NCBI GenBank assembly: GCA_015067465.1
Contig: SVMK01000006.1
Span: 1 to 53,026, forward strand
Source of the DNA: Oscillospiraceae bacterium
GTDB lineage: Bacteria > Bacillota > Clostridia > Oscillospirales > Oscillospiraceae
Direction: 5' to 3'
DNA length: 53,026 nt
Below are positions 14,651-24,163 of this stretch, one piece after another. A model generated the notes under the pieces. The model worked only from the letters and a program-made list of their open reading frames with translations. It made no database searches and was not told the DNA's origin. Within the stretch, counting starts at the first letter, position 1. Each line of letters starts with the position of its first letter. The position numbers and the translations under genes are program-made.

Positions 14651-15535
14651 ATGAAAAAAAGATCTGTTACTCTGCTTGTTGTTTTCTGTCTTGTTCTGGC
14701 GCTCATCCCGCTCACAATCGGTGTGATCGGCACGGGCAGCGCCGCCGCACCCGCACCCGTAAAGGAAGTTCTCTACCAGTCCTCCAACGGTCAGGCGGTG
14801 ATTGATGCAACCTATGTTGCAAACGGTTATGTCAAAGTGAAGTTCAACCCCGGCATTGACGTCAAAACCAAGGTCATCATCAAGGGGCCCGACGCGGTGA
14901 AATATACCTACAACCTCAACAGCAAGGGCAATTACGAAACCTTCCCGCTCACCGCAGGCAACGGCAAGTACACCGTCGGCGTTTACAAAAACGTCAGCGG
15001 CACTTCCTACAGCACGATGCTGAGCAAGGAAATCACCGTAAATATGCCTGACCAGTTTGCCCCGTTCCTGAACCCCAACCAGTACGTCAACTATTCCGCC
15101 GACAGCAAGGTGATTGCTCTGGCGGCTGAGTTGGCCGGCGCTGAAACGACGGAGCTTGGCAAGGTTGAGAAGATTTACCACTACATCATCACCAACTTCA
15201 CCTACGATTACGACAAGGCCGCAACCGTAAAGAGTGGCTATCTGCCGAATGTTGACACCACGCTTGCCGAAAAGAAGGGTATCTGCTTTGACTACGCCGC
15301 CGTGATGAGTTCCATGCTGCGCAGCCAGGGTGTCCCCACCAAGCTGGTTGTCGGCTACGCGGGAACGCAGTATCATGCCTGGATTTCCGTTTACACCAAG
15401 GAAAACGGCTGGGTTGAGTCCGTTGTATTCTTCGACGGCAACACCTGGAAGCTTATGGATCCCACCTATGCCTCCTCCGGCTATGTTGAGTATGCGAACA
15501 ACGCAGCAAACTACTCTCAGAAGTACGTTTACTGA
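14651..15535 (+). CDS. Secreted transglutaminase-like (cysteine protease fold) protein
   Basis: A 294-residue protein with a signal peptide (basic start MKKR, hydrophobic core to about residue 32, then AAAPAP). Residues about 40-135 look like a beta-sandwich. The C-terminal transglutaminase-core domain (about 150-280) shows the expected triad: Cys in KKGICFDYA, His in QYHAWI and Asp in LMDPTYA. Such proteins act outside the cell as cross-linking or proteolytic enzymes on wall or surface proteins. GGAAGGAG precedes the ATG. The gene has two promoters, one with TGTAAC boxes shared with two other genes here. No cell-wall anchor is present. Confidence 0.88.
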   Translation: MKKRSVTLLVVFCLVLALIPLTIGVIGTGSAAAPAPVKEVLYQSSNGQAVIDATYVANGYVKVKFNPGIDVKTKVIIKGPDAVKYTYNLNSKGNYETFPLTAGNGKYTVGVYKNVSGTSYSTMLSKEITVNMPDQFAPFLNPNQYVNYSADSKVIALAAELAGAETTELGKVEKIYHYIITNFTYDYDKAATVKSGYLPNVDTTLAEKKGICFDYAAVMSSMLRSQGVPTKLVVGYAGTQYHAWISVYTKENGWVESVVFFDGNTWKLMDPTYASSGYVEYANNAANYSQKYVY

Positions 15536-15576: not shown

Positions 15577-15616
15577 CCGCAGCGTATCCAAGCGATACGC
15601 TGCGGCTGTTTTTTTA
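15577..15616 (+). terminator. Terminator of the transglutaminase gene
   Basis: A perfect 12-bp GC-rich stem (15577-15588 with 15594-15605) and a T-run of eight. Confidence 0.9.
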
Positions 15617-15647: not shown

Positions 15648-15676
15648 TTGCAATTAACGCATAACACTGATATAAT
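15648..15676 (+). promoter_or_regulatory. Promoter of the pilus-like operon
   Basis: TTGCAA (15648-15653), 17 bases, TATAAT (15671-15676), about 60 bases before the first gene. Confidence 0.85.
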
Positions 15677-15734
15677 TAAGTAATTATTGCGCGGCAAAAT
15701 TTAACCGCGCAGCATATGAGAGGAGGAGTTCACC

Positions 15735-16775
15735 ATAAAACTCCGCACACTTGATGACGAATATCTGTCCTTTTTCTGCGCAGCGCTGAGCAACGTGCTG
15801 GACGCAGGCCTGCCGGTCAGCGAGGGCATTTCCCTGATGGGCGAAGAGGAAGACGATGACGACCTGAAAGCGATGCTCGACCGCCTTTACGAACGTCTGG
15901 GCTACGGAACCACCGTTTTCGCCGCTTTCACCGAGGAAGGCGTGTTTCCGGAATATATGCTCAATATGATCGACCTCGGCGAGCAGACCGGTCACCTCGC
16001 AACGGTGTTTCACAAGCTGGCTGCCTATTACGACAAGCAGGTTCACATCCGCTCCGTCATTCGCAGCGCAGTGGCATACCCCGCCATGCTGTTTGTGATC
16101 ATTCTGGCCGTGTTTTTCGTGTTCCTTACCGAAGTTTTGCCCGTTTTCAAGGATGTTTTCGCGCAGTTGGGCGCCACGATGCCCCCCTTCGCCACCGCTC
16201 TGCTGAATTTCGGCATTGGTCTCGGCAAGGCAAAGTGGGTTTTACTCGGCGTTCTGGTTGCCGTGCTGGTTTATCTCATCCTCTGCCGCACCGTGCGCAG
16301 CGTTCGCGATGCTTCGATGAATCTGCTGACCCGCCTGTTCGGCGGCTCCGCGCTCGGCCTGAAGGTTTCTCTGGCACGTTTTGCCGCCGCGATGAATCTG
16401 AGCTATTCCGGATTGTCCGACGTGCAGGAAGCGCTGGCAATGTCCGAGCGGTTTTCTTCGAGCAAAGCGCTGGAGGAAAAGATTCGCCGCTGCCATGCGG
16501 AAATTGAAGCCGGAAAAGGCGTTGCCGAGGCGATGTCCGCGTCCGATCTGTTCTCTTCCATTGACTGCAAGATGCTCAGCATCGGCGCAAAAACCGGATG
16601 CGTGGACGAAGTATTGGAAACCATCGCGGTTCACACCGAAGAGGACATGGACGAAGCGCTCGAGAAGGCAACCGGCCGCGTGGAGCCCGTGATCGTGCTG
16701 ATCCTCTCCGTTTGCGTCGGCCTGCTGCTGCTCACCGTGATGCTCCCGCTGGTCAGCATCATGTCCGTGATCTGA
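15735..16775 (+). CDS. GspF/PilC-type inner membrane platform protein, apparent ATA start
   Basis: About 346 residues with two T2SSF domains (about 15-130 and 210-335) and three hydrophobic helices (near 110-135, 170-200 and the C-terminus), as in type IV pilus platform proteins. The family N-terminus (LSFFCAALSNVLDAGLPVSEG) begins before the first usual start, a GTG at 15795 without a ribosome binding site. A strong GAGGAGGAG lies at 15719-15728 and the codon six bases after it, in frame and just after an in-frame TGA, is ATA (15735). I therefore place the start at ATA; GTG 15795 (326 residues) is the conventional alternative. It heads an operon of pilin-like genes and pilT. Confidence 0.85.
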   Translation: MKLRTLDDEYLSFFCAALSNVLDAGLPVSEGISLMGEEEDDDDLKAMLDRLYERLGYGTTVFAAFTEEGVFPEYMLNMIDLGEQTGHLATVFHKLAAYYDKQVHIRSVIRSAVAYPAMLFVIILAVFFVFLTEVLPVFKDVFAQLGATMPPFATALLNFGIGLGKAKWVLLGVLVAVLVYLILCRTVRSVRDASMNLLTRLFGGSALGLKVSLARFAAAMNLSYSGLSDVQEALAMSERFSSSKALEEKIRRCHAEIEAGKGVAEAMSASDLFSSIDCKMLSIGAKTGCVDEVLETIAVHTEEDMDEALEKATGRVEPVIVLILSVCVGLLLLTVMLPLVSIMSVI

Positions 16776-16785
16776 GGCGCTGTCT

Positions 16786-17106
16786 ATGAAAAGAGAGAAG
16801 AAAGCCGTCATCCCGCGCGCTGCCGTGGTAACGCTGCTGCTGTTTGCGGTGCTGCTGATCTGTGTGCTCAGCGGTGTCCGTCAGGCGGCGCAGGCACAGA
16901 AAACAGAGGCAAAGCGCATTTTGGAAGACAGCCTCTACCGCGCCGCCGTGAGCTGCTATGCCATTGAGGGCCGCTACCCCGACACGCTGGAATACCTTAC
17001 GGATAACTATGGCGTTTATATCGACGAAACGAAATATGCCGTATTTTACGACATATTCGCATCCAACCTGATGCCGGACATCACCGTGCTTGACAAGCAG
17101 CCGTGA
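16786..17106 (+). CDS. Small pilin-like membrane protein
   Basis: A 106-residue protein with one N-terminal membrane helix (about 12-32) and a small outer domain starting RRAAVSCYAIEGRYPDTLEYL-like, the pattern seen after the helix in pseudopilins (a coiled stretch, then a Y-x-x-EG-x-YP-x-x-L region). It lacks a prepilin peptidase site with the usual Gly-Phe. It starts 10 bases after the gspF stop and is followed by another pilin-like gene. Role in a pilus-like fibre is inferred from context. Confidence 0.7.
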   Translation: MKREKKAVIPRAAVVTLLLFAVLLICVLSGVRQAAQAQKTEAKRILEDSLYRAAVSCYAIEGRYPDTLEYLTDNYGVYIDETKYAVFYDIFASNLMPDITVLDKQP

Positions 17107-17149
17107 ATCCCTGCCCCGGAATCACTGACCGAAAGGAATTAGGTTATAC

Positions 17150-17635
17150 ATGGGAAAAAGTTCTCAGACGATCGGGTTTATCATCAGCCTGATCCTTATA
17201 TGCCTGTTCGCAGTCTGCGTGTTTCTGGTGCTGGCAACCGGCGCGGAGATTTATAAAGACATCTCCGGCGTCATGGACACGCAGTTCGGCGCGCAAACCG
17301 CCCTTGGCTACACCGCAACAAAAGTCCGCCATTTCGACATTGCCGAGAGCGTGAGCGTCGGCAAGCTGGTTGAAACGGACGCAATCATCCTGCGCGAAAC
17401 CATCGACGGCAGCGAATACCACACCTATCTCTACAACCACGACGGCTATCTCTGCGAGCTGTTTTGCGAAGCGGATTCCGGACTCCGCCCGGAGGACGGA
17501 CAGCAAATCATCGCAGTGGACGGCTTTGAATTCAAGCTGGACGGGAGCATGCTCCACATTGCATGCGAAACAAACGGCAGCACCATCACGCAAAGCATCT
17601 ATCTGCGCAGCGGAGAGGCGGGTGAGGCGGCATGA
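17150..17635 (+). CDS. Pilin-operon membrane protein, DUF4860-like
   Basis: A 161-residue protein with one N-terminal membrane helix (about 7-32) and a beta-rich outer domain (about 50-155). It resembles proteins I recall as DUF4860 from similar Clostridia loci, but that name is from memory. No peptidase cleavage motif. A short AAAGGA site precedes ATG 17150. Its stop overlaps the next start by four bases (ATGA), so translation is coupled. Confidence 0.7.
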   Translation: MGKSSQTIGFIISLILICLFAVCVFLVLATGAEIYKDISGVMDTQFGAQTALGYTATKVRHFDIAESVSVGKLVETDAIILRETIDGSEYHTYLYNHDGYLCELFCEADSGLRPEDGQQIIAVDGFEFKLDGSMLHIACETNGSTITQSIYLRSGEAGEAA

Positions 17636-18033
17636 AAAAACGATCGAAAACCCCGCTTTCCCTGATTGAAATCACCACAATGGTCCTGATTTTTTCCCTC
17701 TGCGCCTCCATCTGCATGCGCCTGTTTGTGTCCGCAAACGAAAAGGCGAACCGCAGCAGCGATCTTGCCTGCGCCGTTGGCTGGGCACAAACCGCAGCTG
17801 ACACCTACAAAAGCTGCGGCGGCGACCATGCGGCGGCGGCACAGCAGCTCGGCGCAGACATTTCCGGCAAAACCGCAACGCTGTGGTTTGACAACGGCTG
17901 GAACGTGTGTGCGCAGTCGGGCGGCAGCTTTTGCCTGACGCTCACCGACGGGGATCCCGCCGGGGTCAGCGTTTCACACGCCGGCGGCGAGGTGCTTTTC
18001 GCGCTGGAAGTAAAGGCGGTGCCCTATGGATAA
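17632..18033 (+). CDS. Prepilin-like protein
   Basis: A 133-residue protein whose start resembles a type IV prepilin: basic MKKRSKTP, then LSLIEITTMVLIFSLCASICM, with Glu five positions into the hydrophobic helix as in GFTLIE pilins, although Pro-Leu replaces Gly-Phe. The rest is a short outer domain rich in Gly and Ala. It overlaps its neighbours on both sides (ATGA before, 8 bases after), which supports tight co-translation with them. Confidence 0.72.
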   Translation: MKKRSKTPLSLIEITTMVLIFSLCASICMRLFVSANEKANRSSDLACAVGWAQTAADTYKSCGGDHAAAAQQLGADISGKTATLWFDNGWNVCAQSGGSFCLTLTDGDPAGVSVSHAGGEVLFALEVKAVPYG

Positions 18034-18478
18034 AAAAAGACGCACGGGCACAGCCCGCTTCAACATCGGCATCGCATCCATCATCTGCATCTTTGCGGTG
18101 CTTGGCCTGACCATTTTCGCCGTACTCTCGGTTTCCACCGCAAGCGCGGAAGCCAAACTGGCGGACAAATATGCCGCCTCCGTCACGGACTACTACGCCG
18201 CCGACCGCCGCTGCTCCGATATTGCCTGCCGTTTCGGCGCGCTTTGGGAATCCGGCGCGGATGCGCAGGCGCTGCGCGCACTGGCGCAGGAGCTTGACGC
18301 AAGCTTTGAGTCGGACGGCACAGAAGCACAAATCAGCTACAGCGTTCCCATCGACGGCACGCAGAACCTGAGCGTAACGCTCCGCCTGGGTGCATCGTTC
18401 CGCATCGAACGCTGGCAAACAGAAAACGCCGGAGAGTGGCTCCCCGATACGGAGCTGAATCTCTGGGACGGAACTTGA
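18026..18478 (+). CDS. Pilin-operon membrane protein, unknown family
   Basis: A 150-residue protein with one helix (about 14-38) followed by an Ala-rich, partly coiled stretch and a beta-rich tail. It looks like a minor pilin or assembly partner because of size, topology and place, but has no diagnostic motif. The start overlaps the previous gene by 8 bases and the stop is 10 bases before pilT. Confidence 0.65.
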   Translation: MDKKRRTGTARFNIGIASIICIFAVLGLTIFAVLSVSTASAEAKLADKYAASVTDYYAADRRCSDIACRFGALWESGADAQALRALAQELDASFESDGTEAQISYSVPIDGTQNLSVTLRLGASFRIERWQTENAGEWLPDTELNLWDGT

Positions 18479-18488
18479 GGAGGAACCT

Positions 18489-19547
18489 ATGTCCGGATTT
18501 TTTGAAATCATCCAGCAAGCCATGGAGCAAAAGGCGTCCGACGTTTTTATCGTTTCCGGACAGCCGATCTCTTTCAAAATCAATAAGCGCATCGTCCCGA
18601 TCGACGATGACCGCGTTATGCCCGAGCGCGCTCACATTCTGGTGGCGGAAGCCTACGCCGCTGCAAAGCGCGATATGGCGCGCCTGATCGAAAAGGGCGA
18701 CGACGACTTTGCCATTTCCATGACCGGCATCGGCCGCATGCGCATGTGCGCCTACAAGCAGCGCGGCTCTCTGGCCGCCGTTGTTCGCATGGTGTCGTTC
18801 CAGATCCCCGATTACAGACAGATCGGCATCCCGGAAAACGTGATTAGCTGCGCGCAGGCGCAAAAGGGCCTTGTTCTTGTAACCGGCCCTGCCGGAAACG
18901 GCAAATCCACCACGCTCGCGTGCATCATCGATCAGATCAACAAAACGCGCAACGGTCATGTGATCACACTGGAAGACCCCATCGAATTTCTCTACCGCAA
19001 CGACAAATGCATCATCAGCCAGCGCGAAATCGAGCAGGACACCCAAAACTATGTCACGGCCATCCGCGCCAGCCTGCGTCAGGCGCCGAATATCATTCTG
19101 CTCGGCGAAATGCGCGACTATGAAACCATCAGCGCCGCAATGACCGCCGCAGAAACGGGCCATCTGGTGCTCTCCACGCTCCACACCGTTGGCGCCGCCG
19201 ACACCGTTGACCGCATTATCGACATTTTCCCGCCCTCGCAGCAGCAGCAGGTGCGTGTTCAGCTGAGCATGCAGCTCCACGCCGTTGTGTCGCAGCAGCT
19301 GGTCCCCACCGTGGACGGCGGCGTTGCCCCGGCATTTGAGGTCATGTTTGCTAACAACGCAATCTGCAACCTGATCCGTGACGCAAAGGTGCACCAGATC
19401 GACTCCGTGATCGCCACATCGTCCGCACAGGGCATGATCAGCATGGACAACAGCCTGCTGGATCTGTATTCGCGCAAGCTCATCACCAAGGAAACCGCGC
19501 TGACCTATTCTCAGCACCCGGAAATCATCGCAAAGCGCCTTGACTGA
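18489..19547 (+). CDS. pilT: PilT-like type IV pilus retraction ATPase
   Basis: A 352-residue secretion ATPase. Walker A is GPAGNGKSTT (about 136-145), the Asp box ITLEDPIEF near 160, Walker B IILLGEMRD near 200, and the His box STLHTVGAADTVDRII near 227, as in PilT/PilU. GGAGG lies just before ATG 18489. It is the only motor of the operon: no PilB-type extension ATPase and no prepilin peptidase are in the window. It may drive retraction or, as the sole motor, both directions; that is inference. Confidence 0.92.
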   Translation: MSGFFEIIQQAMEQKASDVFIVSGQPISFKINKRIVPIDDDRVMPERAHILVAEAYAAAKRDMARLIEKGDDDFAISMTGIGRMRMCAYKQRGSLAAVVRMVSFQIPDYRQIGIPENVISCAQAQKGLVLVTGPAGNGKSTTLACIIDQINKTRNGHVITLEDPIEFLYRNDKCIISQREIEQDTQNYVTAIRASLRQAPNIILLGEMRDYETISAAMTAAETGHLVLSTLHTVGAADTVDRIIDIFPPSQQQQVRVQLSMQLHAVVSQQLVPTVDGGVAPAFEVMFANNAICNLIRDAKVHQIDSVIATSSAQGMISMDNSLLDLYSRKLITKETALTYSQHPEIIAKRLD

Positions 19548-19568
19548 TCGTAAATTCCCAATAAACGC

Positions 19569-19618
19569 AAAAAACCCGCCTGCCCTGCAGCACTGCCTGC
19601 ACGGCGGGCGGTTTTTTT
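19569..19618 (+). terminator. Terminator of the pilus-like operon
   Basis: GC-rich arms (AACCCGCCTGCC against GGCGGGCGGTT, imperfect) followed by seven T. Confidence 0.8.
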
Positions 19619-19735: not shown

Positions 19736-20941
19736 TCAGCAATCGGTTTCGGACTTTTTACGCATCGCAGCGGTTGCGATCAGGCCGCACAGGCTGAGCA
19801 CTGCAACGATGAGCATTGCGTTGCGCACGGTGGAGGCAGCGCCGGTTGCGGGGGTTGCGTCCAGAGGAACATCCTCGTCCTCAATGTCGGTCATCTCTTC
19901 TTCGGGCTCGCCGGTGAGGGGAACTTCCTCGTCCTCGATGAGTTCAACTTCCTCTTCGGGTTCATCTGCCAGAGGAGTTTCCTCTTCAAAAATCTCTACG
20001 GTTTCGTTGGAATCGTAGAAATATTCGTTGTCGATTTCGTTTTCGTTTTTGATTTCTTCCTTGGGTTCTTCCTTGCGCTCGGTGACGTTTTCTTCAACCA
20101 CAGGCTCTTCAACTACGGGTTCTTCAACTTCGGGCTCTTCAACTACGGGTTCGTCAGCTTTGGGCTCGTCGACTACGGGCTCGTCAACTGCGGGCTCGTC
20201 AACTTCGGGCTCGTCAACTGCGGGCTCGTCAACTTCGGGCTCGTCAACTTCGGGCTCGTCAACTACGGGCTCGTCAACTTCGGGCTCGTCAACTGCGGGC
20301 TCGTCAACTTCGGGCTCGTCAACTACGGGCTCGTCAACTACGGGCTCGTCAACTTCGGGCTCTTCAACTTCGGGCTCTTCAACTTCGGGCTCTTCAACTT
20401 CGGGCTCGTCGACTTCAGGCTCTTCAACTACGGGCTCTTCAACTACGGGTTCTTCAACTTCGGGCTCTTCAACTTCGGGCTCTTCAACTTCGGGCTCTTC
20501 AACTGCAGGCTCTTCAACTACGGGTTCTTCAACTACGGGTTCTTCAACTTCGGGCTCTTCAGTGCCCGTGCTGCCGGCACCAACATTGAAGGTGCCGCCA
20601 AGCTTCATGCCGCCGATATTGACAGAGACGTTCACACCAAAACCGTTTTCTCCAAACTGAATGTCGCCGATGTTGATATCAAAGCCGCCCTCGAACGGGT
20701 TGCCAAACTGCGCATCAATCGTGCCGTCAACATGAACATCGCCGTTTTCGCCGCTGTAAGTGCCCTCAACAGTGCCGTCTTCGGTGACGTTGCCTTCTGC
20801 GGACCAGAAGCCGCCAAACCAGTCGGTGAAAGAAGCGCCGAACGGATGGCTGTTGCCTTCTGCAGCAGACGCGGAAACGCTGAGTCCTGCGGTCATGACC
20901 AGAACGAGGACAACCGCAAACATCTTCTTGAGCTTCTTCAT
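19736..20941 (-). CDS. Secreted EP-rich pentapeptide-repeat surface protein
   Basis: A 401-residue protein. Signal peptide 1-27 (KKLKKMF, hydrophobic core, SASA). Residues 30-125 are a Gly-rich, probably beta-structured domain. Residues about 131-285 are 31 tandem pentads of the type xVEEP or xVDEP; the middle copies carry Asp, the outer copies Glu. Residues 290-355 are acidic. The end has TPATG, a hydrophobic stretch ([18 protein letters not shown]) and RKKSETDC, which resembles an LPxTG-type sorting signal with an unusual first residue; similar VPLTG and VPLD words occur just before. It is probably wall-anchored with the repeats as a stalk. GAAGGAGAAGAG precedes the ATG. Confidence 0.85.
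20087..20551. repeat. 15-bp tandem minisatellite
   Basis: About 31 tandem copies of a 15-bp unit (plus-strand type GGGCTCGTCAACTTC, with TCT/TCG and GCG/ACG/TCG variants) encode the EP pentads. Unit length is a multiple of three, so copy-number changes keep frame. Confidence 0.95.
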
Positions 20942-21233: not shown

Positions 21234-22076
21234 TTACGGCAGCGGCTGCTCCGCTTCGGGCGCGGGATCCGGCGTAATTTTTTTTGCAACAACGGCGAAC
21301 CGACCGTTTTCAACGTGGTAAGAACAGGTGGACAGCGTGAGCAGCTGGTCGCCGAATTCTGCCTCCACGCCGGTGTCGTAGCACTGGTTTTCGCGGATGA
21401 AGTCGAGATATTCGTTGAATTCTTCCTCGGTTTCCGCCTCGCGGAAATAGTAATAGCGGAAGCCGTCTTCGCTTTTCATGAGCACGCGGGCATAAAACGC
21501 ACCGATGATTTCGTAGGTTTGCTCCTCATAGAGCGTGTCGAAGCGGATATATTTGTGGTCTTTCCAGTAATCCTCATAGGAAAAATAATCCAAGTGGCCG
21601 AACATGGCGCTGCTTTGCATATGGTGGCCGTAAATGATGAGATTTTCGGACGTGTTAATATCATTTTTCGCATCGAGATACAGGGTGCCGCGGTTGGATG
21701 GGTTGCCGTAGAAATCGATGTCGATATATTTGTCCGGCTCATCGGGCGTATGCATAACAACATAGTCAATCGCCGTGCCATCAATCTTCAGCCAGCCGAT
21801 CGTGTCGGGGTTTTGCTCATACACCTCAGCGTATTTCTCCATCACAACGGGTTCCGGCGTGGGGGTGGGGGAGGGTTCGGGCGTTTGCGTTGCAGCGGGC
21901 ATCGGCGTTGGCGTAAGGGTGGGCAGGGGCGCCGGGGTTTGCACAACGAGCGACTGCACCTGCTTATCCGTTTGGGATTCGCGGTATTGCCCGATATAGT
22001 ACACGGCGAGCCAGCCGCCGCTGATGATAAACACCGCCGCAAAGATCAGAATGATGATTTTTCTGAGCTTGTTCAT
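21234..22076 (-). CDS. srtB: Class B sortase
   Basis: A 280-residue membrane-anchored transpeptidase. An N-terminal helix (about 7-28) is followed by a Pro/Thr-rich linker (about 45-75). The catalytic domain (80-265) has IIYGHHM with the essential His, LLTLSTCSYHVENGRF with the catalytic Cys, and the Arg five residues after the Tyr-His. The extra helix region and the TLSTC motif favour class B. It sits directly upstream of the EP-repeat protein with its possible sorting signal, so that protein is the likely substrate; this is inference. GGAGGA precedes the start; a TATAAT lies at about 22114. Confidence 0.92.
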   Translation of the reverse strand: MNKLRKIIILIFAAVFIISGGWLAVYYIGQYRESQTDKQVQSLVVQTPAPLPTLTPTPMPAATQTPEPSPTPTPEPVVMEKYAEVYEQNPDTIGWLKIDGTAIDYVVMHTPDEPDKYIDIDFYGNPSNRGTLYLDAKNDINTSENLIIYGHHMQSSAMFGHLDYFSYEDYWKDHKYIRFDTLYEEQTYEIIGAFYARVLMKSEDGFRYYYFREAETEEEFNEYLDFIRENQCYDTGVEAEFGDQLLTLSTCSYHVENGRFAVVAKKITPDPAPEAEQPLP

Positions 22077-22242: not shown

Positions 22243-22653
22243 TTATTCGGACAGGGCGCTGTCCAGAATCATCAGCAGCTCAAGAACGCTGCGGAAGCTC
22301 GCTTCCGACTCCTCCTCCAGCCACGTAACCGTGCCCTGCCAGCTTGCGTTCTGGCGGAAATGCACATTGATGCGGAACGTCGCAATCTGGCCGCCGGCGT
22401 TTTCCGCGGGCTGCGCGCCCGTCGCGGACACAGTGGTGCCGCTGAAGCTGCGGCGCTCCATCGCGCGCTGCGGACTGTTGAGCTCATCATAGAGTTCATC
22501 CATGATCATCAGCAGCTGCATCTGGCTTTCAAATTCCAGTCCCTCCGGGAACTTCGCGTTGGTCACGGTTCCTTTCAGGTTTTTGCCCGCATAGGATTTT
22601 GCCTTGACCAGGCAGGTTTTGCTCTCAAACGGGACAAACTTGGTGTAAACCAT
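22243..22653 (-). CDS. Small conserved-looking protein, unknown function
   Basis: A 136-residue soluble protein without signal or membrane segment. The N-terminal half reads as a short beta structure (KTCLVKAKSYAGKNLKGTV), the middle has an Ala/Gly-rich loop, and the C-terminal part (FRQNASWQGTVTWLEEESEASFRSVLEL) looks like a beta-alpha unit. I do not know its function. It has a strong AAAGGAG site before ATG 22653 and its own promoter with the TGTAAC double box, shared with the EP-repeat and transglutaminase genes, which places it in the same probable regulon. Confidence 0.75.
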   Translation of the reverse strand: MVYTKFVPFESKTCLVKAKSYAGKNLKGTVTNAKFPEGLEFESQMQLLMIMDELYDELNSPQRAMERRSFSGTTVSATGAQPAENAGGQIATFRINVHFRQNASWQGTVTWLEEESEASFRSVLELLMILDSALSE

Positions 22654-22873: not shown

Positions 22874-22902
22874 TTGTAATTGCAAATCTGCGGGGATATA
22901 AT
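22874..22902 (+). promoter_or_regulatory. Promoter of the SARP-like gene
   Basis: TTGTAA (22874-22879), 17 bases, TATAAT (22897-22902). The 22741-22870 stretch between this and box copy 3 is AT-rich and holds no gene. Confidence 0.75.
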
Positions 22903-22960
22903 TAATTGGTTTGATTTGTTCCCAAAACTGTCGTTGCAACGACGGAGGATACATATTATT

Positions 22961-24163
22961 ATGGATGATTCTGCTTATCTGAAAGTAAATATGCTCGGCG
23001 GATTTTCCGTCTCTTACGGTGACACGGGCAAAACCCTCACCGATAAAGACACCCGCTCCCGCAAGGTTTTGATGATGCTTGAATATCTCATCACCTTCCG
23101 CGAGCGAGAGATTCCGCAGCACGAGCTGATCGATATGCTTTGGCCCGACGAAGAAAGCGACGATCCCGCAAACGCACTGAAAACCCTGCTCTACCGCGTG
23201 CGAAGCGCCATCGGCGAGGTCGGCTTTGTGGACGGCAAGGACCTGATCCTCTCCCGCACCGGCTCCTACGGCTGGAACAACGCTTACCCCATCTGGATTG
23301 ACGCCGAGGAGTTTGACCGCCTCAGCCGTATCGACACCGCGCTTCCGCCCGACGAACTGCTGAACAATCTTCTGCAGGCCATCGCCCTTTACAAAGGCGA
23401 TTTCCTTCCCAAAACCTCTATGGAGCCCTGGGTGGTTCCCATCAGCACATATTACCATTCCCAATACCTCAAGGCCGTGCACTACGCCGTTGAAAAGCTC
23501 AATGAGCAGGCCCGCTTTGAGGATATCATCGCCATCTGCCAGGACGCCATCGCGGTTGACCCCTATGACGAGCCGCTGCATCTGGCCACCATCCGCGCCC
23601 TGATCGACACCGGCATGCAGCAAAAAGCCCTGCAGCACTACAACTACGTCACCGACCTTTTTATGAAGGGCTTCGGCATCAACCCCAGTCCCGAGCTTGT
23701 GGCCCTTTATAAGGAAATCATCAAAACAACAAAAACCATGGAGACCAATCTCCATGTTATCCGCGAAGAGCTTCGCGAGCACGAGCACAGCAGCACCGCG
23801 TTTTACTGCGAGTATGAAATCTTCAAAGACATCTACCGTCTGGAAGCACGCGCTGCCGTCCGCACCGGTCAGGTGGTCCATATCGTGCTGGTCACCGTGA
23901 TGGACGGTCGCGGCAAAAAGCTTTCGCAAAAGCAGCTCAACCTCTCCATGGACCGTCTGCAGGAGGTTATCGCCGGCTCGCTCCGCATCGGCGACACCTT
24001 CACACGCTACAGCGTTTCCCAGTATCTTTGCATGCTCCCCACCGCGTCGCTGGAAAACTGCGACCTTGTGATGCAGCGAATTTCCCGCAATTTCAAGAAA
24101 AAATACGCTCATATGGACATTTTGCTCCAATACTCGGCGCTTCCGATCGAGCCGTGTGAATGA
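22961..24163 (+). CDS. SARP/BTAD-type transcriptional activator with degenerate cyclase-like C-terminus
   Basis: A 400-residue regulator. Residues about 5-100 form an OmpR-type winged helix (VNMLGGFSVSY, then TRSRKVLMMLEYLI, LIDMLWPDEESDDPANALKTLLYRVR, LILSRTGSYGWN). Residues about 105-245 are the bacterial transcriptional activation (BTAD) helical repeat (ALYKGDFLP, FEDIIAICQDAIAVDPYDEPLHLATIRALI). Residues about 275-395 resemble a GGDEF fold with the catalytic motif lost (LRIGDTFTRYSVSQYLCMLP). SARPs bind direct heptamer repeats at 11-base spacing near the -35, exactly what three promoters here show. The ATG at 22961 has GGAGG 12 bases upstream; an earlier frame overlaps the promoter. It is divergent from the orphan gene. 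Confidence 0.85.
   Translation: MDDSAYLKVNMLGGFSVSYGDTGKTLTDKDTRSRKVLMMLEYLITFREREIPQHELIDMLWPDEESDDPANALKTLLYRVRSAIGEVGFVDGKDLILSRTGSYGWNNAYPIWIDAEEFDRLSRIDTALPPDELLNNLLQAIALYKGDFLPKTSMEPWVVPISTYYHSQYLKAVHYAVEKLNEQARFEDIIAICQDAIAVDPYDEPLHLATIRALIDTGMQQKALQHYNYVTDLFMKGFGINPSPELVALYKEIIKTTKTMETNLHVIREELREHEHSSTAFYCEYEIFKDIYRLEARAAVRTGQVVHIVLVTVMDGRGKKLSQKQLNLSMDRLQEVIAGSLRIGDTFTRYSVSQYLCMLPTASLENCDLVMQRISRNFKKKYAHMDILLQYSALPIEPCE

Follow-up and report, generated by a model that had tools for sequence, protein, structure and literature searches.

A clostridial six-gene pilus-like operon with PilT as its only apparent motor and a transglutaminase-like partner

Introduction

What kind of machine is encoded by an operon that has the platform, the small subunits and the retraction-type motor of a type IV pilus, and neither an assembly motor nor an enzyme to mature its pilins? 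The question is raised by a stretch of 53,026 nucleotides from an Oscillospiraceae bacterium (GenBank assembly GCA_015067465.1, contig SVMK01000006.1, positions 1 to 53,026 of the forward strand; hereafter the window). Positions 15648–19612 of its plus strand form a single transcription unit of six genes, encoding a GspF/PilC-type platform protein, four small proteins (p2, p3, p4 and p5) with one N-terminal hydrophobic helix each, and the ATPase PilT. A preliminary description made from the letters had recorded this content together with the absence of PilB, of a prepilin peptidase and of PilM/N/O, and had left two options, namely that the missing parts lie elsewhere in the genome or that the operon encodes a reduced, single-motor machine. 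We consider it highly probable that the operon belongs to a functional system that has PilT only and does without prepilin peptidase. That this is a distinct type-IV-filament-like machine, driven by the PilT-type motor alone, independent of the peptidase and working through a short pseudopilus together with a transglutaminase-like protein (TG), seems to us fairly probable. Beyond the preliminary description, the analysis brought out the TG partner, the wide distribution of the system and the descent of its four small proteins from pilins.

Results

Absence of an assembly ATPase and a prepilin peptidase

Gene calls and domain matches between 15735 and 19547 bore out the content previously given for the operon, and none of pilB, pilD, pilM, pilN and pilO was seen at the locus, to which the inspection for PilM/N/O was confined. 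The search of the genome for pilB and pilD that had been proposed returned exactly one PF00437 match, which is the operon PilT, and no match to the prepilin peptidase family PF01478. This genome (1.82 Mb, 85% complete, 101 contigs) could not by itself decide between the two options. Among the 79 genomes found in the order search to carry DUF4860 (PF16152), the family of p3 and our marker for the system, PF01478 matched in 52, elsewhere than in the cassette, and had no match in 27; counting carriers at least 90% complete, 26 of 78 were without it. Two single-contig genomes (G170, G387) and three isolates (G144, G364, G252) are among the 27 peptidase-less carriers, and the 26 besides the window's own genome are all at least 95% complete. 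In each of 26 of the 27 there was one PF00437 match of at least 127 bits, which is the operon PilT, the remaining genome (G072) having no PF00437 match whatsoever. PilB proteins score more than 400 bits in the same searches; no PilB-class match was found in any of the 27, in which the remaining ATPase matches, apart from one of 98.8 bits in G122, reached 17.5–33.3 bits. The prepilin motif N_methyl likewise passed its cut-off in none of them. A second complete pilus locus with matching pilins, which would have spoken against a reduced machine, did not appear in these 27 genomes. Because 26 further near-complete carriers, two of them single-contig, have neither peptidase nor PilB-class matches, the second of the two options prevails, and the reduced machine is, as far as gene content indicates, real.

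One may postulate instead that the operon borrows PilB and PilD from another pilus, Tad or secretion locus of the same cell and that its pilins are processed after all. Peptidase-positive carriers usually have a separate pilus or Tad-like locus, and many carriers have a PilB/PilT locus; moreover, according to passages of Denise et al. (PMC6668835), MSH loci contain no peptidase and may draw on that of another system. This explanation is nevertheless improbable given the 27 carriers, single-contig genomes and cultured isolates among them, in which neither enzyme was matched, the lack of any N_methyl match over cut-off in these, and the absence of glycine at position −1 from 68 of 89 p4 sequences.

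Distribution and conservation of the cassette

DUF4860 matches over the cut-off came from 20 of the 99 relatives, from 78 of the 396 order genomes and from 12 of the 398 phylum genomes, while 14 control genomes gave none. The gene set is found in gut and environmental Clostridia; Intestinibacillus massiliensis is one named carrier, and the operon is complete in the cultured Butyricicoccus pullicaecorum DSM 23266, in Oscillibacter valericigenes An860 and in Oscillibacter sp. PC13. Loci were gathered around DUF4860 matches and by a p2 pattern search, which gave 80 of its 232 relatives as named loci. The homologous operons that the preliminary description had suggested looking for were readily found: after removal of 18 duplicates, 137 of 151 distinct loci held all six genes in the same order, and in nine of the 14 incomplete loci a contig end cuts beside the missing genes. 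The full operon also occurs in Chloroflexota, in Flexilinea flocculi; in a quick tree, in which one fragmentary PilB row (L140_B) was misplaced, the Flexilinea PilTs fall within those of Bacillota, which suggests transfer. A viral origin of the system found no support: scanning viral contigs with p3 yielded no relative, and in PHROGs PilT matched just two families, of unknown function.

Several genomes depart from this pattern. Genome G072 holds a five-gene version without PilT and TG (L130, 4004–6766). In G005 the operon (L054/L207) has no PilT of its own, a separate PilB/PilT locus lies elsewhere in the genome, and the PilT of that locus is the highest-scoring pilus PilT against the system profile. 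The genus siblings G001 and G002 have PilB and prepilin peptidase and gave no DUF4860 match.

The motor and the platform

The ATPase of the operon exceeds the cut-off of the PilT model TIGR01420 (Table 1), while the ComGA model (133.8 bits, cut-off 300) and the TadA-family model (33.7 bits, cut-off 373) stay far below theirs. Its nucleotide-binding motifs and a PilT-type C-terminal motif, which we take to be the Walker A motif, the Asp box, the His box and an AIRNLIR-like motif, are conserved over a 17-row alignment. In a tree of PilT sequences that comprised 33 of the 44 system rows and left out L140_B and other short PilB rows, the PilTs of the system group together in a single clade, with support of 100/96, that includes neither pilus PilTs nor PilBs. 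The platform is short at its N-terminus, in the manner of ComGB (NF041012, 107.9 bits, below the cut-off of 240).

This ComGB-like platform, together with a ComEA match in the window's own genome, invites the view that the operon encodes a ComG-like pseudopilus for DNA uptake, run by PilT. ComEA passed its cut-off in 16 of 27 carriers and, among 30 non-carriers that lack a peptidase, in 19 (p 0.79), and B. pullicaecorum (G144) gave no ComEA match at an E-value of 0.001. Because ComEA is about as frequent in peptidase-less non-carriers as in carriers, no link with DNA uptake emerges, and we do not favour this view, which we regard as very improbable.

Pilin ancestry of the four small proteins

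The predicted model of p2 has a mean confidence score (pLDDT) of 94, and the first seven rows of its structure comparison with VIA are all type IV pilins, the best being PilA4 (Z 7.3). That of p3 (pLDDT 90.8) consists of a 59-residue helix and eight strands; its first six VIA rows, with Z values of 8.9–7.7, are TTHA1219 (twice, best 8.9), the XcpV/XcpW complex (8.4), XcpW, EpsI/EpsJ and GspK-I-J, followed in row seven by the XcpGHIJK pseudopilus model (Z 5.5) and by unrelated rows from 5.2 down. For p4, the profile picks up Geobacter PilA at E 6e-5; in this alignment Glu5 is matched and position −1 holds a residue other than glycine. Sequence searches of the PDB returned nothing useful for p3 and p5 and only a weak TcpA match for p2 (E 1.1). 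Compared with Pfam, members of the p2, p4 and p5 families had scattered weak matches only, T2SSI, N_methyl, Tt1218-like and PilX_N each appearing in one of 35 p4 members, and N_methyl had no match in the four small proteins of the window.

Relatives of all four proteins were found in canonical pilus clusters. When system profiles were compared with 27 type IV pilus (T4P) loci of the order (a few of which overlap or share a genome), p2 matched in two, p3 in two, p4 in 18 and p5 in three at E <1e-3; reversed decoys gave no match for p2, p3 and p5 and a best E-value of 0.014 for p4. By eye, these relatives have glycine at the processing position in every case, as in G↓YTLMEL, G↓FTLIEL, G↓FTLMEV and G↓SALVLV (the arrow marks that position); the first two are the sites of distant p2 relatives in two canonical clusters, and among the p4 matches the glycine is present in 18 of 18. 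In G034 (L139, 4523–11999), relatives of p2, DUF4860, p4 and p5 lie along one canonical pil locus that has PilB, PilT, PilC and genes that resemble PilM/N/O in position and look; this cluster is a candidate for the ancestral state. Because the predicted folds of p2 and p3 match pilins and GspJ, and because all four have relatives in canonical pilus clusters, we read all four small proteins as pilin-derived.

The preliminary description had stated that the pilin-like proteins lack the usual Gly-Phe cleavage site, which holds for p2 and p4 and needs refining for the other two. In the window p4 reads K-T-P↓L-S-L-I-E, with proline at −1 and glutamate at +5; across the system Glu5 is kept in 88 of 89 sequences and Gly(−1) is found in 21 of 89. 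Glu5 is present in all 33 p4 sequences from peptidase-less genomes, that is, from the 27 order carriers and the relatives G019, G029, G030, G057, G071 and G088 (completeness 73–91%). We read this pattern as selection for Glu5 where the cleavage site itself is missing. In p5 the glycine at the would-be −1 position occurs in 88 of 88 relatives, a degree of conservation from which we conclude that it probably serves something besides cleavage. In p3 there is a Gly-Phe pair at residues 9–10, and it is not conserved.

Descent from pilus genes, the disappearance of cleavage sites, pilB and pilD, and the existence of a few copies without pilT might also be expected of a type IV pilus locus that is falling into decay. 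The conservation seen here already makes this unlikely, and we give it very little credence: 137 of 151 loci are intact and in one order, the catalytic motifs of PilT are kept over 17 rows, p4 retains Glu5 almost without exception, the link to TG is tight, and the Chloroflexota copies sit inside the Bacillota clade.

The transglutaminase-like partner and other neighbours

The TG family, a secreted protein or lipoprotein inherited together with the cassette, was present in 132 of 153 loci, and the Cys, His and Asp residues of its triad are each conserved in 132 of 132. Of 123 distinct loci that have 1.3 kb or more of upstream sequence, 96 carry TG immediately upstream and in the same orientation; in 19 it lies elsewhere in the locus, and in eight it is absent; a lipobox-like motif is seen in 73 of 122 TG sequences. 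Among the 99 relatives, a TG match with an E-value of 1e-40 or better occurred in 17 of 20 DUF4860 carriers and in one of 79 non-carriers (Fisher 3.6e-15). The three carriers without a strong match are G034, whose DUF4860 match lies in the canonical pil cluster, G055 and G064 (55% complete).

Such a partner raises the prospect of a type II secretion-like piston with TG as its cargo, in which a pseudopilus would push or release TG through the wall. The subunits resemble the G/I/J/K set, the predicted model of p3 matches GspJ structures, and TG, often with its lipobox-like motif, is the most constant partner; on the other hand, the export signal of TG looks ordinary, so that the surface could be reached without help, and the motor is PilT, not GspE. 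We judge this explanation unlikely, while granting it some weight.

Other neighbours are associated more loosely: 59 of 153 loci have a BTAD regulator close by, and 33 of 153 have a sortase. The former might hint at a membrane complex that is no filament at all, driven by PilT to sense or transmit force and signalling through the BTAD regulator, the more so as uncleaved pilins may be unable to polymerise. Yet most loci have no BTAD regulator nearby, neither a receptor nor a kinase partner was seen, and the presence of four kinds of pilin speaks for assembly; the proposal accordingly carries little probability.

Layout of the locus

Genes within the operon are separated by gaps of 10–44 nt or overlap by 4–8 nt, and the span of 15648–19618 previously assigned to it lies close to the promoter-like site and the terminator-like stem that we place at its two ends (Table 1). 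An Rfam scan around the operon found nothing. The platform gene has a good Shine-Dalgarno sequence and no in-frame ATG, GTG or TTG before 15795 (window 15721–15740); its start codon is likely ATA at 15735, unless the assembly holds a base error there. Downstream, the minus strand encodes a secreted Pro/Glu-repeat surface protein with a C-terminus resembling a sorting signal (19736–20941), beside a sortase (21234–22076), and a protein of about 136 amino acids (22243–22653) from a family of unknown function, of which 26 of the 153 loci have a member close to the system.

Table 1 Features of the operon and its surroundings, with positions in the window and the basis of each assignment.
Feature	Position	Strand	Basis
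Secreted transglutaminase-like protein (TG), partner gene	14651..15535	+	Transglut_core 80.7 bits
Terminator-like stem separating TG from the pilus-like operon	15577..15605	+	Sequence scan
Promoter-like site, TTGCAA-17-TATAAT, extended TG	15648..15676	+	Consensus match only
GspF/PilC-type platform protein	15735..16775	+	T2SSF (PF00482) 153 bits, two domains; GspF/PilC models
p2, pilin-like, conserved CYAxEGxYPxxxxYL	16786..17106	+	Predicted model, structure comparison, distant T4P-cluster relatives
p3, DUF4860 (PF16152), predicted GspJ-like minor pseudopilin fold	17150..17635	+	87.5 bits; predicted model
p4, pilin-like, Glu5 retained, Pro replacing Gly(−1)	17632..18033	+	Profile match to Geobacter PilA
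p5, PilX/GspK-like, invariant Gly where the helix begins	18026..18478	+	Alignment; weak profile matches, T4P minor pilins
PilT-type ATPase, sole motor	18489..19547	+	TIGR01420 406 bits vs cut-off 319; motifs
Terminator-like stem 3′ of pilT	19592..19612	+	Sequence scan
BTAD (SARP-type) regulator, frequent neighbour	22880..24163	+	BTAD 73.5 bits

Discussion

A possible mechanism

The explanation that we prefer for our observations is a distinct machine in its own right, related to type IV pili and pseudopili; it descends from such machines and probably still works like one. The four pilin-like proteins would remain uncleaved and be held in the membrane by their N-terminal helices, and p2–p5 would assemble on the platform as a short, envelope-bound pseudopilus, with p2 as its G-like subunit and the GspJ-like p3, the PilV/GspI-like p4 and the PilX/GspK-like p5 as a tip or initiation complex. 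A PilT hexamer would rotate the platform and supply all mechanical work, either driving both directions or pulling against a self-assembling bundle. TG would act beyond the membrane, with the wall or subunits of the machine itself as its target, and might be moved, exposed or used for cross-linking by the machine; what the machine moves is something that we infer. This combination of a short pseudopilus with TG is tentative, and we would give it rather less than an even chance. That the loci represent an unnamed and widespread class, with PilT as sole motor, uncleaved pilin-like subunits, no prepilin peptidase and a coupling to a surface TG, appears to us slightly more probable than its contrary.

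A number of points weigh against this interpretation. It is drawn from genes and their predicted products. A peptidase match exists in 52 of the 79 carriers, and Gly(−1) of p4 is somewhat commoner where a peptidase is present (17 of 56, as against four of 33 in peptidase-less genomes; Fisher p 0.07), because of which some copies may still be processed. PilT is absent despite room for it in G005, G072 and L168, and probably also in L159, where only 920 bases are left, and in the partial L184, so that a motor may be dispensable in some cases or the copies in question may be decaying. In G122, one of the 27 peptidase-less carriers, the operon PilT has an in-frame TGA and there is a second PF00437 match of 98.8 bits; the two PilT-like sequences lie at C10:5009–5848 and, elsewhere in the genome, at C12:34973–35773. 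The fold assignments of p2 and p3 rest on Z values near 8, which VIA itself rates as middling, and Foldseek gave no match at an E-value of 0.001 for either p3 (best 0.092) or p2 (best 1.4); fold predictions cover these two proteins, p4 being assigned by sequence. Finally, TG stands behind a terminator-like stem of its own in the window and is placed elsewhere in the locus in 19 of 123 cases.

Implications

Since only a retraction-type motor is present and the cell often has no pilin-maturing enzyme, the system may break two rules thought universal for such machines, concerning the assembly motor and pilin maturation. If true, this would be, to our knowledge, the first natural case in which all the work falls to a 'retraction' motor and pilins go without maturation. 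It would make testable in nature whether a PilT-class motor can assemble as well as pull, and what role Glu5 of a pilin has when its N-terminus is never freed. DUF4860 and several unannotated families would gain a role, detection models with pilB or pilD as mandatory genes would overlook the system, and cultured gut butyrate producers such as Butyricicoccus pullicaecorum are possible test hosts. We found no paper that mentions DUF4860 or describes the six-gene cassette. For a Butyricicoccus-like genome pilB and pilC have been listed (PMC4880562), and these entries might stem from automatic naming of the six-gene operon. In their survey of Gram-positive pili, Imam et al. (PMC3244431) took PilB/ComGA and platform proteins as the starting point; the passages of that survey considered here describe no such operon.

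Comparison with known systems

Passages of Berry and Pelicic (PMC4471445) define type IV filaments by four hallmarks: pilins with class III leaders, the prepilin peptidase, an ATPase that drives assembly and a platform protein. The GspF/PilC platform is present here, as is a pilin fold, by predicted models for p2 and p3 and by sequence for p4; a peptidase and an assembly ATPase of the PilB/GspE/ComGA class are lacking, and so is a class III leader in the four small proteins of the window, some copies elsewhere retaining Gly(−1) in p4 (21 of 89). Because three of the four hallmarks are thus missing, we do not file the system as a type IV pilus, Com, type II secretion or Tad system.

The monoderm type IVa pilus, exemplified by the cluster of G034, shares PilT, a PilC-type platform and relatives of p2–p5 in one cluster. 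The cassette differs from it in having no PilB, PilD, PilM/N/O (at the locus) or classical major pilin and in having mostly lost class III leaders, and its PilT falls in a separate clade. With the competence pseudopilus (ComGA–GG, ComC) it has in common a short ComGB-like platform, several small pilin-like proteins and a small number of genes, whereas its ATPase is of PilT type and not ComGA, ComC has no counterpart (PF01478 being unmatched in the window's own genome and in 27 of 79 carriers), and there is no association with ComEA. The type II secretion pseudopilus (GspE, F, G–K, O) shares GspF and the predicted GspJ-like fold of p3, and p4 and p5 presumably correspond, by their motifs, to GspI and GspK; unlike it, the system has no GspE or GspO and has a PilT motor and a TG partner.

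The Tad/Flp pilus likewise has a single ATPase, the bifunctional CpaF/TadA, and in a study of CpaF one ATPase reportedly served both directions in Tad pili. Passages of Denise et al. (PMC6668835) also state that one ATPase can do so. In contrast to Tad/Flp, the system has no CpaF/TadA ATPase, no TadV peptidase (PF01478 being unmatched in the window's own genome) and no Flp pilins, and it has one platform gene where Tad/Flp has the two TadB/C proteins. The MSHA pilus still has an extension ATPase dedicated to it and a host with a prepilin peptidase, both of which set it apart from the system described here. In Vibrio cholerae, however, PilT is needed for extension of the MSHA pilus as well as for its retraction (PMC9815625), and in this role of PilT in extension the MSHA pilus resembles a system that has PilT only.

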